The position numbers were made by a program, and so were the translations under genes. The notes beneath the pieces are model-generated. The model did not search any database. It saw only the letters and a program-made list of their open reading frames with translations, and was not told the origin of the DNA. A stretch of 64,000 bases of DNA. Source: Campylobacterales bacterium (GTDB taxonomy: Bacteria; Campylobacterota; Campylobacteria; Campylobacterales; Sulfurimonadaceae). Below, one piece after another: positions 3,289-9,880 of this stretch (positions are counted from its first letter, which is position 1; each line of letters opens with the position of its first letter). The stretch covers positions 124,001-188,000 of the forward strand of contig JAPLGM010000015.1 of assembly GCA_026390165.1 (NCBI GenBank), in the 5' to 3' direction.

Positions 3289-3376
3289 CTCGCTCCCAAG
3301 CTCCAGCTTGGGAGTGTATACTGCAAGTCAAGTTTACGTTAAAGTCTGCATTCCAAAGCTAGAGCTTTGGAACGAG
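3289..3376. repeat. BIME-like inverted pair of REP units, copy 1
   Basis: The left unit has arms CTCCCAAGCT / AGCTTGGGAG at 3293-3314 with a 2-base centre. The right unit, inverted, has arms TTCCAAAGCT / AGCTTTGGAA at 3351-3372. Both begin CTCGYTCC and end in a TG...CWGCA tail when read in the same sense, so this is two copies of one unit facing each other. Truncated or degenerate copies lie at 8923-8975 and 43058-43085. REP units of this kind are usually mobilised by RAYT transposases; none is seen in this window. Confidence 0.75.
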
Positions 3377-5090: not shown

Positions 5091-5175
5091 CGCCTTTAAA
5101 TTATAAATGAGAATTAAAGCAGTAAATTATTAAAAGATTGGTAGCAACAAGGGTGGGGAGAGGGTGAATGAAATG

Positions 5176-5204
5176 TTGTCAATATAGAGTTGATACGCTA
5201 CAAT
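5176..5204 (+). promoter_or_regulatory. Sigma-70 promoter of the PIN toxin-antitoxin pair
   Basis: TTGTCA (5176-5181), a 17-base spacer and TACAAT (5199-5204) form a near-consensus promoter ending 26 bases before the antitoxin ATG. A well-formed -35 box is unusual in this phylum and suits an acquired cassette. Confidence 0.6.
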
Positions 5205-5230
5205 ACATAAAAGTCAATAAAGGATACAAA

Positions 5231-5515
5231 ATGACAACGACGTTGAGCATACGAGATTTAGCACGTAATACCAATATCTTGCAACAATATGACTATGTAG
5301 ATGTAGAGGACAAAAAGTCGCATGAGTACAAAGGGCTGTTTATTTCACCTAAATATGCTGATGAGTTTAGAAAGCTTTTGGAAAAAAAGATTATGGATGA
5401 AAGACAAAGAGATTTGGATGAGATTATGCAGTTTGTGGGATCTGGTAGTATTGACGAAAAATATATGAATATGACATCACGAGAGCTCAGAGAAGCTCGT
5501 GCTTTGAGGCTGTAA
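5231..5515 (+). CDS. Putative antitoxin of PIN-domain module
   Basis: This 94-residue protein is probably the antitoxin and autorepressor of the downstream PIN toxin. The N-terminal half (TLSIRDLARNTNIL, then YVDVEDKKSHEYKGLFISP) resembles a small Phd/AbrB-like DNA-binding fold, and the C-terminal half is charged and helical, as expected for a toxin-binding tail. The ATG at 5231 was chosen for its AAAGGA ribosome binding site; an in-frame upstream ATG would overlap the promoter. The stop overlaps the toxin start as TAATG. Assignment rests mainly on context; I do not recognise the family with certainty. Confidence 0.7.
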   Translation: MTTTLSIRDLARNTNILQQYDYVDVEDKKSHEYKGLFISPKYADEFRKLLEKKIMDERQRDLDEIMQFVGSGSIDEKYMNMTSRELREARALRL

Positions 5516-5934
5516 TGGAAAGAAGTAATATTTTTTTAGATGCCAATGTTATTATCGATTTGATAGTCCCTTTTAGACCACAACACGAGGCTGCTTCGGT
5601 GTTACTAAAGTATTTGATAAATAATAACTATCAAATAGTTATTAGCGAAGATATGTTCAGCACAGTTTTTTATGTGGTAAAAGAAAAAAAACAAGTTCTA
5701 AATTTTTTTAAAACCATACAATCCAAATGGCATATAGTCCCTTTTGGTGCAGAGGTGATTAAAAATGCCATAGATTTATCGTTGGAAAAGAATTTGGATT
5801 TGGAAGATGTTCTTCAATGCCTTTGTGCCAAAGAAAATGGGTGTAGTGCGTTGATAACGAATGACAAAAAGTTTGTTGATTGCGGTGTGGCTATTTATAC
5901 GACAGATGAGTTTCTTTCCAAAAGTTCCATTTAA
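5515..5934 (+). CDS. PIN-domain ribonuclease toxin (VapC-like)
   Basis: This 139-residue protein has PIN-domain acidic residues: FLDANVIIDL at 8-17, a Glu in ISEDMF, the LDLEDVLQ segment and ALITNDKKF near 112. It probably cleaves RNA when freed from its antitoxin. It is translationally coupled to the antitoxin (TAATG overlap). Directly after its TAA, and in the same reading frame, comes a 27-codon stretch that matches the C-terminus of the AAA ATPase encoded at 6145-7338. The toxin's 3' end therefore marks a junction where a cassette replaced most of an ATPase gene, or where a read-through fusion decayed. Confidence 0.82.
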   Translation: MERSNIFLDANVIIDLIVPFRPQHEAASVLLKYLINNNYQIVISEDMFSTVFYVVKEKKQVLNFFKTIQSKWHIVPFGAEVIKNAIDLSLEKNLDLEDVLQCLCAKENGCSALITNDKKFVDCGVAIYTTDEFLSKSSI

Positions 5935-7475: not shown

Positions 7476-7880
7476 ATGAAACGTTCTGGTTTTACTATGA
7501 TCGAGTTGATCTTCGTTATCGTTATTCTAGGTATTTTGGCGGCAGTTGCCATTCCGAAACTCGCAGCAACACGTGAAGATGCAGCGGCGACAGCAGCATT
7601 GGCAAGTTTTAAAACGGGTGTAAACCAAATACAAGCTACTACAACGGCGACGGGTGCTATTCCTGATTTTACAACTATTATTGATGGTAGTGCAAATCTT
7701 GTAGTAGCAGCAACAGTTATTACAGCGAAAGATAAAACAGGTGGTACTACTTGTGCTACTGCTACAAAAACTGCTAATGACTTAGTTATAGCAGTGCCAG
7801 CAACAACGGGTGGCTGTGCTCTTTTTGCAAGTGTTCAGCCTGCTACTATTCCTCTTTTGGGCAGTGCTATAGCGCGTTAA
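7476..7880 (+). CDS. Type IV pilin-like protein (prepilin), paralogue 1
   Basis: This 134-residue protein has a class III signal MKRSG/FTMIELIFVIVILGI: a short basic leader, cleavage after Gly, methylatable Phe1, Glu5 and a hydrophobic helix. The mature domain is small and rich in Ala and Thr, with two Cys (GTTCAT and GGCALF) that could close a disulfide loop near the C-terminus. It is very similar to the next gene, including DFTTIIDG and PLLGSAI. A strong AAGGAG site precedes the ATG. It is probably the major subunit of a pilus or of a DNA-uptake pseudopilus; the filament's role is inferred. Confidence 0.88.
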   Translation: MKRSGFTMIELIFVIVILGILAAVAIPKLAATREDAAATAALASFKTGVNQIQATTTATGAIPDFTTIIDGSANLVVAATVITAKDKTGGTTCATATKTANDLVIAVPATTGGCALFASVQPATIPLLGSAIAR

Positions 7881-7987
7881 TCTTTTCTCCTTCTCACTCT
7901 TCTGAGTGGGGACGCATATCTAGTATAGTTGAATTGATTTTTGAGATTTACACTAAATCGTAAAATTCAGCTCAAAGAGAGAGCATT

Positions 7988-8395
7988 ATGAAACGACAAG
8001 CATTCACAATGATTGAACTGGTGTTTGTGATCGTAATGTTAGGTATTTTGGCGGTTGTTGCGATTCCAAAGTTGGCAACGACGCGTGAAGACGCATCGGC
8101 AACGGCGGCGTTATCGAGTTTTAAAACGGCTGTAAATCAAATACAATCTGTTGCAACATCGAAGGGTAGTATTCCAGATTTTACAACTATTGTTGATGGG
8201 AATGCAAATCTTACAGTGGCAGTAGGTGTTATTACTGCATTAGACAAAGCGGGCGGTTCTACTTGTGCTACAGCAAGTATAGCTAATGGTACCGATTTGG
8301 TTATAGCTGTTCCAAAAACAGATGGAGGGTGTCTTTTGTTTGCACATGTGGAGCCTTCTACTACCCCGTTATTAGGTTCTTCAATAAATCGTTAA
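7988..8395 (+). CDS. Type IV pilin-like protein (prepilin), paralogue 2
   Basis: This 135-residue prepilin has signal MKRQA/FTMIELVFVIVMLGI, with cleavage after Ala or one residue offset, Glu5, a conserved TREDASATAALSSFK helix and the same two Cys as its upstream neighbour. The pair looks like a tandem duplication that has diverged mainly in the central and C-terminal loops. It has an AGAGAG ribosome binding site. It sits between two other prepilin genes on the same strand, so all three probably share a filament. Confidence 0.87.
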   Translation: MKRQAFTMIELVFVIVMLGILAVVAIPKLATTREDASATAALSSFKTAVNQIQSVATSKGSIPDFTTIVDGNANLTVAVGVITALDKAGGSTCATASIANGTDLVIAVPKTDGGCLLFAHVEPSTTPLLGSSINR

Positions 8396-8442
8396 TATGT
8401 ATAATGTTGAATTATATTACTTAGTGTAAATTAGGATAAAAA

Positions 8443-8904
8443 ATGAAACGAACCGCTTTCACAATGATCGAACTCGTCTTCGTCATTGTCATATTAGGGA
8501 TTTTAGCAGCCGTTGCGATACCGAAATTTGCAGCAACACGTGATGATGCCCAAATTGCCAAAGGGCGCAGTGACGTGGCGGCGATTCGTGCGGCTATCGT
8601 GGGTGAGCGTCAAGGGCGGTTGTTGCAGGGGCAGTCGAATTATATTAATCAGTTGCATCATGGTACGGATGTGTTGTTTGACGCTAATGGAACGGCTACA
8701 ACAGATGGAAAACTGCTTCAGTATGGAATTACGACTCAAGCAGATACGAATGGACATTGGCAACCTTATGCTACTTCATTACAATATAAATATCATATTT
8801 TAGGGGGTGATGTAGTGTTTACTTATGCTCCAACAACTGGTACTTTTAATTGTACCCCTGCATCAACGGCTACGACAGATCCGTGTAGATTATTGACGAA
8901 TTAA
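8443..8904 (+). CDS. Type II secretion/type IV pseudopilin
   Basis: This 153-residue protein starts MKRTA/FTMIELVFVIVILGI, then AAVAIPKFAATRDDAQIAKG, typical of the Campylobacterota transformation or T2SS pseudopilins. The C-terminus has two Cys (GTFNCTPAS and TDPCRLLTN). It differs from the two upstream paralogues after the helix and contains a Gln-rich stretch near residue 65. A TATAAT-like element at about 8402 suggests it can also be transcribed on its own. The priA fragment downstream and the pilin genes upstream may once have been one locus. Confidence 0.85.
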   Translation: MKRTAFTMIELVFVIVILGILAAVAIPKFAATRDDAQIAKGRSDVAAIRAAIVGERQGRLLQGQSNYINQLHHGTDVLFDANGTATTDGKLLQYGITTQADTNGHWQPYATSLQYKYHILGGDVVFTYAPTTGTFNCTPASTATTDPCRLLTN

Positions 8905-8922: not shown

Positions 8923-8975
8923 CTCGCTCCCAAGCTCCAGCTTGGGAGTGTATACAGCAGTCTGCATTCCCAAAA
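8923..8975. repeat. BIME-like repeat, copy 2, truncated
   Basis: The left REP unit is intact and nearly identical to the 3289 copy (arms CTCCCAAGCT / AGCTTGGGAG at 8927-8948). The inverted right unit is present only as TCTGCATTCCCAAAA (8961-8975) and then stops, so the element lost its second hairpin. Confidence 0.7.
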
Positions 8976-9014
8976 CAAAAACAAAACTCAAATTTTTATT
9001 AAGAACCGTTTTAG

Positions 9015-9020
9015 TATAAT
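9015..9020 (+). promoter_or_regulatory. -10 element of the structured RNA
   Basis: TTTAGTATAATAG contains a perfect TATAAT about 7 bases before the first base of the folded region; the upstream DNA is T-rich, as in Campylobacterota promoters. Confidence 0.5.
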
Positions 9021-9026
9021 AGTGAT

Positions 9027-9336
9027 GTTTGAAAAACTAAGGCAAACGCCTGATGATACTCTAATAGCGGGCATGGACTGGGTGTGTAGATCGTAAGATC
9101 GAGGAGTCCAAACTTGGAGGTATCCTAAGTGGAATTGGTCGTTTTGATCGTGAAGCTTGTGTGGATTTTAATCGAGTTCATCCGCTACTTTAACAAGTAG
9201 TAGATTTACTCAAGGACGTGAACCGAAGTTGTCTTTGTATCACCAAAGGTAGATCGAAGATATAGTTAAGGTTAGGTTAAAACATATTTAGCGATATGAG
9301 TTAACCGTAGTTGGATAATAATCCTTATCTATTTTC
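9027..9336 (+). ncRNA. Candidate structured non-coding RNA, family not recognised
   Basis: About 300 bases without an ORF but dense in helices: AGGC-AAAC-GCCT (9040-9051); GGACT/AGTCC (9075-9079 with 9105-9109) enclosing GATC-GTAA-GATC with a GNRA loop; ACTTGGA/TCCTAAGT (9112-9130); long-range TAGCGG/CCGCTA (9065-9070 with 9182-9187), which competes with local GTGGAT/ATCCGC and CTACTT-TAAC-AAGTAG; CTTTG/CAAAG (9233-9248); GGTTAA..CATAT/ATATG..TTAACC (9275-9306); and GGAT-AATA-ATCC (9313-9324). A TATAAT promoter lies just upstream. I looked for signature sequences of RNase P RNA, tmRNA, SRP RNA and common riboswitches and did not see them. Confidence 0.6.
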
Positions 9337-9417
9337 AAGCACAATTATAACTGCTATACGTTAAAATATTCTTACTTAAAAACAAAAAAAATACTTTATT
9401 TATAAAGGCAAAAATTG

Positions 9418-9483
9418 ATGATGATATTTGGGTTTTTGGCTAGACGATTGCATAAAAAAACTGATGATTTGAAGGATTTATAA
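9418..9483 (+). CDS. Tiny ORF, 21 residues
   Basis: ATG-ATG opens a 21-residue peptide, MMIFGFLARRLHKKTDDLKD then L, that ends in TAATG, overlapping the start of the next small ORF. An AAAGG lies 9 bases upstream. It may be a real leader peptide or just a spacer that carries the next gene's ribosome binding site. No family is recognised. Confidence 0.35.
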   Translation: MMIFGFLARRLHKKTDDLKDL

Positions 9484-9566
9484 TGTTAGCTACAGCGATG
9501 ATGATATTTTTGGCAGTTGTTTTTGTGGGTGTTATTATTTACGGTGCAAAAGAGGTAGCTTGGTGA
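9483..9566 (+). CDS. Small single-span membrane protein, 27 residues
   Basis: A good GAAGGA site 7 bases before the ATG supports translation. The peptide begins MLATAMMIFLAVVFVGVIIY and ends GAKEVAW: one hydrophobic span with a short charged tail, like the small subunits that attach to larger membrane complexes. It overlaps the preceding tiny ORF by one base, and a truncated priA start follows 8 bases later. No family is recognised. Confidence 0.5.
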   Translation: MLATAMMIFLAVVFVGVIIYGAKEVAW

Positions 9567-9574
9567 CTTATTGA

Positions 9575-9739
9575 GTGCACTTCTACGCAATAGCCCTTTT
9601 GGGCTCCTCTTTCGAACCTCTTACTTATCATTCAGATAACCCATTATCTATAGGATATGAAGTCAGTGTAAACCTCAGTAATCGTGAAACGGAGGGAGTC
9701 TATTTTATAATTACGATAAAAGCTGATTCGGATGAGTAA
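9575..9739 (+). pseudogene. Truncated primosomal protein N' (PriA), N-terminal 54 codons only
   Basis: From a GTG at 9575 the reading frame gives (M)HFYAIALLGSSFEPLTYHS, then DNPLSIGYEVSVNL and GVYFI, and stops at 9739. This is the N-terminal strand order of PriA (Campylobacter proteins open with FYELALLGSPLKALTYES-like sequence). Full PriA is about 600 residues, so the 3'-binding and helicase domains are absent. Beyond the stop comes 64 bp of AT-rich DNA and then tRNA-Arg, so a deletion or recombination event near the tRNA is likely. Whether an intact priA exists elsewhere cannot be seen. Confidence 0.7.
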
Positions 9740-9803
9740 TTGATAGTGAATTTTTTTGAGTGATTTTAGGTAAGTGAAGTTTAATAATTACGGTGTTTGT
9801 AAG

Positions 9804-9880
9804 TGGTGCGCCCGAAGGAATTCGAATCCCTGACCGCCGGTACCGCAAACCGGTGCTCTATCCAGCTGAGCTACGGACGC
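9804..9880 (-). tRNA. tRNA-Arg (anticodon GCG)
   Basis: The minus strand gives a full cloverleaf: acceptor GCGTCCG paired with CGGGCGC, D-arm AGCTCAGCTGGATAGAGC, anticodon stem CCGGT/ACCGG with loop TTGCGGT (anticodon GCG, reading CGC/CGU), T-loop TTCGAAT, and an encoded CCA end. A 34-position A, common for this isoacceptor in other bacteria, is replaced by G. Confidence 0.95.

Follow-up and report, generated by a model that had tools for sequence, protein, structure and literature searches.

The supposed non-coding RNA at positions 9027–9336 of the window (the whole 64,000-nt stretch of DNA that was analysed) is most likely the folded mRNA of a membrane peptide of 23 residues, which is probably a self-toxin, and we consider it probable that the element as a whole represents a type I toxin-antitoxin cassette that is new and narrowly distributed. 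The region is intergenic and lies, as the sequence-only reading had placed it, between pilin genes and two tiny ORFs: on the 5′ side there are three type IV pilin-like genes (7476–8904), the last of which contains the N_methyl motif, and on the 3′ side two tiny frames (starting at 9420 and 9483) and a tRNA-Arg gene. A hydrophobic peptide, an end-closed mRNA that is predicted to sequester the Shine-Dalgarno (SD) sequence, an antisense promoter and a dispersed but narrow distribution together make up the anatomy of a type I locus; one hallmark of such loci is a non-translatable primary transcript, in which the SD is sequestered (PMC6733600).

The limits of the element were set by comparing two copies in unrelated surroundings. 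The copy in the window (contig C8) and a second copy on another contig of the same genome (G000:C5:5765–6130) have nothing in common except a promoter-bounded block of about 365 nt (approximately 9010–9373): the similarity stops at about 9010, where the block begins with TTTAGTATAAT, and at about 9373–9376, which gives 9010–9376 (plus strand) as the extent of the whole cassette. The C5 copy is flanked by an FRG-domain gene on one side and by molybdate-uptake-like genes (a molybdate operon) on the other, i.e. the cassette has been duplicated to an unrelated locus. A third copy was identified in a congeneric genome (G040, contig CANMHZ010000117.1, Helicobacteraceae bacterium isolate ZH-15may19-74), which brings the total to 3 copies in 2 genomes; the identity is 93–94%, and the promoters and the ORF are intact in all three. 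The C5 copy adjoins also an ORF6N-domain gene, together with the FRG-domain gene, within the molybdate gene region (L007 3585–5577); genes of both these types are frequent in phage-related or defence regions. A palindromic repeat, CCCAAGCTCCAGCTTGGG, stands at 8929–8946 and 3295–3312 of the window, and G040 has several copies of it; in both it is found directly upstream of the cassette, and it is absent at the C5 copy.

The sequence-only reading had described the region as lacking any ORF; it contains, however, an SD-preceded frame of 23 codons (9129–9200, plus strand), which has a GTG start and a length below the usual ORF cut-offs, encodes the candidate membrane toxin VELVVLIVKLVWILIEFIRYFNK, and ends in a TAG stop followed by a second in-frame TAG. 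The SD sequence GGAGG (9116–9120) is located 8 nt before the GTG and is invariant in all copies; a small hydrophobic peptide ORF with a ribosome binding site, as looked for in a type I toxin gene, is therefore present. The analysis of the 36 positions within 9010–9373 that vary among the three copies revealed 12 in the 90 nt of the 5′ leader (13%), 19 in the 139 nt of the 3′ part (14%) and none in the 85 nt of the SD and ORF, the last of these results being reached in 0 of 20000 random placements; an invariant run of 97 nt, the longest, has its first base exactly at the SD (chance 0.0002). Some SD-preceded frame of at least 18 codons is found in 17.7% of dinucleotide shuffles, an equally hydrophobic one in 0.3%, and one that has in addition a five-base SD in 0.04%. 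The charged residues of the peptide (E2, K9, E16, R19 and K23) fall within a 100-degree strip on one face of the helix (chance 0.017). In the ORF the synonymous sites are just as invariant as the others, with 0 synonymous substitutions among the three copies, and therefore the coding claim is made without a codon signature; constraint at the RNA level or gene conversion could yield the same invariance in the SD and ORF. Another frame of 23 codons in the leader, starting from the ATG at 9025, was rejected, as its start codon is ACG in G040 and it shows non-synonymous differences in the C5 copy.

So far, the searches for further relatives have returned the cassette from these two genomes only. 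DNA comparison with 41 genomes of the genus, 228 of the family and a phylum sample of 397 returned G040 as the sole real match, and no other real match was obtained with the peptide (60 and 399 genomes), with a covariance model of the element (228 and 399 genomes), or with a degenerate codon pattern for KLVWILIE in 84,980 genomes and IMG/VR. Exact conserved stretches of the cassette had no real match in IMG/VR, phage and plasmid records contained no match to the cassette, and the peptide had zero matches in Pfam, NCBIfam and the sequences of the PDB. The weak matches were opened and rejected, both those of the peptide (L015–L026) and those of the covariance model (L060–L064), as was a weak match in G213, where the DNA codes for an antiporter-like protein.

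At the ends proposed by the sequence-only reading (9027–9336) the RNA folds mildly better than its shuffled versions (z −1.70; 6 of 100 shuffles as good), while at the ends of the conserved block (9025–9342), which include a 10-bp helix between the 5′ and 3′ termini, the z-score is −3.05. Rfam searches with gathering and with permissive thresholds identified nothing on the element, the tRNA-Arg at 9807–9880 being the only match to reach threshold; a match to HPnc0260 (9694–9839), which scores below threshold and lies antisense to a tRNA outside the element, was rejected. The proposal of a structured RNA that matches no Rfam family is supported. The end helix (9026–9035 with 9332–9341) closes the predicted transcript of about 317 nt: the outer 5 pairs of its 5′ arm have a probability of about 1.0 in three copies, and its 3′ arm is predicted in all three. 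An end-to-end helix this long is seen in 0.33% of shuffles (chance 0.0033); in G040 one U·G pair is changed to U-A and the outermost pair is broken. The long-range helix that had been drawn between 9065–9070 and 9182–9187 was recovered as consensus helix 3 (9066–9083 with 9171–9186), which encloses the SD and ORF, with 97.8% of cells paired, one one-sided change that keeps the pair and one break. Nested within it is the SD/start-codon hairpin (9094–9152; 9094–9115 with 9131–9152, and an inner stem of 9116–9118 with 9123–9125), in which all pairs are kept in three copies despite three one-sided changes; the mean unpaired probability of the SD is 0.37–0.43, even though it lies inside this predicted conserved hairpin. 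The 11-bp 3′ stem of the earlier description (9275–9306) corresponds to consensus helix 10, with one G-C changed to G-U and one broken pair, whereas the GNRA-capped stem is there (GUAA loop at 9093–9096) but its loop is not conserved, being CUAG and UUAG in the other copies. Close to the 3′ end a weak terminator-like hairpin followed by UUUU (9312–9335; 9312–9318 with 9325–9331) has pairs that never vary, and it was not flagged by the terminator scans. In the consensus fold of the three copies 8 pairs keep pairing by one-sided changes, 4 cells break and 0 changes are doubly compensatory. Thus, with no synonymous and no doubly compensatory changes, conservation, signals and architecture are the basis on which both coding and structure are assigned.

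The perfect TATAAT reported just upstream of the region is indeed found, at 9015–9020, as a sense −10 box conserved in three copies, and its position would place the start of transcription near 9025–9027. The same hexamer is present on the minus strand at 9344–9349, again conserved in three copies, from which antisense transcription is expected to begin near 9337. The upstream part of this putative antisense promoter (9350–9373) is invariant at 9360–9373, and the conservation with C5 ends about there; that conservation runs beyond the likely 3′ end of the mRNA is explained by the presence of the minus-strand TATAAT. The block has exactly one perfect TATAAT per strand, the sense box at its start and the antisense box just inside its end, facing inward, an arrangement seen in 0.045% of shuffles (chance 0.00045). 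Neither box has a consensus −35 hexamer; epsilonproteobacterial housekeeping promoters often function without one. The promoter and terminator scan revealed no antisense terminator, so what the search for an antisense RNA showed is a conserved, inward-facing minus-strand TATAAT without a −35 element or terminator, besides a weaker second −10 candidate (TAAAAT, 9170–9165) inside the ORF.

In the scheme that we infer from these features, including transcription, translation, toxicity, the action and 3′ end of the antisense RNA and the processing step, a sense RNA some 317 nt long (about 9025–9341) would encode the single-helix membrane peptide of 23 residues and would remain untranslated at full length, as a consequence of the end helix and of the nested helix and hairpin around the SD and start codon. 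On the minus strand an antisense RNA could start at about 9337, pair with the mRNA beginning at the 3′ side of the latter, and block or destabilise it. Upon loss of the antisense RNA or processing of the mRNA the peptide would be made, enter the inner membrane and, via its TisB-like helix, presumably cause depolarisation.

Some of the same evidence would suit a regulatory ncRNA of an undescribed family, in which the frame of 23 codons would be a coincidence and the invariant stretch the functional core of the RNA. The fold over the natural ends, the zero synonymous change, the conserved helices and the promoter of its own all agree with that view, and the suggestion of a stand-alone ncRNA survives insofar as the element is a discrete gene for a structured RNA and has its own promoter; its most conserved part, however, is an SD with a hydrophobic ORF. 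Given that the invariant run opens exactly at a consensus SD with the right spacing to the start codon, that such a hydrophobic SD-preceded ORF is rare in shuffles (0.0004), and that the charges of the peptide fall on one helix face, we regard this explanation as unlikely. Or perhaps the peptide is a small membrane protein other than a toxin, translationally regulated by its structured leader and lacking an antisense partner, with the minus-strand TATAAT being there by chance or for another purpose? The SD-preceded ORF and the leader structure fit this reading, many small single-helix proteins are non-toxins, and the antisense −35 and terminator are missing. But the stretch conserved past the likely 3′ end of the mRNA coincides exactly with the minus-strand TATAAT and the sequence upstream of it, and type I toxin loci typically show an mRNA closed at its ends, duplication and a narrow distribution, which leaves this option rather less likely still.

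Two further explanations concern the neighbourhood. That the element is a long 5′ leader regulating the tiny ORFs at 9420 and 9483 is suggested by proximity only and appears extremely improbable. Neither ORF is present at the C5 copy; conversely, the 27-aa membrane frame (9483–9566, MLATAMMIFLAVVFVGVIIYGAKEVAW) recurs in two relatives, G008 (100% identical) and G031 (50% identical), both of which are without the element, and since the element and the tiny ORFs occur independently, the leader hypothesis, also raised in the sequence-only reading, is unsupported. The 27-aa frame shows a weak FixQ-like Pfam match below the cut-off (E 0.0047), and in G008 and G031 a membrane protein some 80 aa long stands before it. 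The C-terminus of this protein resembles the other frame (9420–9482, MMIFGFLARRLHKKTDDLKDL), and that frame looks like a C-terminal remnant of the protein. A non-autonomous mobile element or repeat without a host function, conserved because its copies are recent, would account for the dispersed copies and the narrow distribution, and the surrounding region is modular, with repeated 5′ fragments of priA; yet the substitutions are strongly non-uniform, the promoters and ORF are intact in all copies, and the ends of the block, on inspection, are not inverted repeats, so that we find this very improbable. In the genome studied, in G040 and in G008, fragments of the priA 5′ end recur where modules meet between the pilin cluster and priA (window 9575–9739; L008 3629–3653 and from 4222 on; L078, minus strand, 2950–2914, about 2440 and 1887), and the region looks like a small modular insertion array; the window holds only a 54-codon priA stump, while the intact priA of the same genome is at C13:230766. 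Elsewhere in the window (5168–5934) a 115-aa frame directly followed by a 139-aa frame resembles, by eye, a PIN-domain toxin with its antitoxin.

Because of their tiny size, possible GTG start and location in seemingly non-coding RNA, type I toxins escape gene finders, and the cassette exemplifies how the label of a structured orphan RNA can conceal a toxin mRNA. If confirmed, the type I assignment would add a family beyond the pathogens from which type I systems of Epsilonproteobacteria are known, and the peptide would make it possible to ask whether the charge strip of TisB is how a minimal membrane-depolarising helix is generally built.

Among the known systems, aapA/IsoA of Helicobacter and related Epsilonproteobacteria shares with the cassette several copies per chromosome and the phylum, and agrees with what is predicted for it in having a small membrane peptide and a long mRNA that is closed by a 5′–3′ long-distance interaction and in which the SD is hidden (PMC6733600). 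The counterpart of that interaction in the cassette is the end helix predicted in three copies; exposure of the ribosome binding site by 3′ truncation was not seen in equilibrium folding, where simulated 3′ trimming left the predicted accessibility of the SD unchanged, and thus the aapA-type activation is not reproduced. IsoA3 pairs with the processed aapA3 mRNA in a duplex of 80 bp (PMC6733600), whereas the cassette has its perfect antisense −10 box beyond the 3′ end of the mRNA, in a convergent arrangement; no family or Rfam model matches the cassette, and the peptide is like AapA by description only. TisB, from the tisB/istR-1 system of Enterobacteriaceae, is an amphiphilic helix of 29 aa with a narrow strip of alternating charges, and its mRNA structure is inhibitory (PMC8309996, PMC11449926), both features resembling those predicted for the cassette. 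At a shift of three, E2, K9, E16, R19 and K23 coincide with the conserved polar positions D5, K12, Q19, D22 and K26 of TisB (5 of 5; post hoc chance 0.0001), with a different kind of residue at 19 (E for Q) and 22 (R for D). Homology was nevertheless rejected: only 5 of 23 residues are identical, and the reversed peptide scores 33 against 27 for the forward one, which indicates a likeness of arrangement, not of descent. IstR-1 of E. coli is divergently encoded, unlike the candidate antisense RNA here. The hok/Sok system resembles what is predicted for the cassette in that the toxin mRNA folds into an inert form with a hidden SD (PMC6733600), but the peptide is shorter than Hok and without cysteine, and the cassette is without an overlapping mok-like frame kept in all copies. 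In yonT/SR6 of Bacillus the toxin mRNA and the antisense RNA are convergent and overlap at their 3′ ends, as suggested for the cassette. The txpA/RatA and bsrG/SR4 pairs of Bacillus are organised in the same way; all three belong to another phylum, have larger toxins and are likened to the cassette by arrangement only. Taken together, these comparisons raise the possibility, which we put forward tentatively, of a new type I family of free-living Campylobacterota, in which one compact, dispersed cassette brings together a peptide with an independently acquired TisB-like charge strip, an mRNA closed at its ends in the manner of hok and aapA, and an antisense RNA that starts convergently at the 3′ end of this mRNA.
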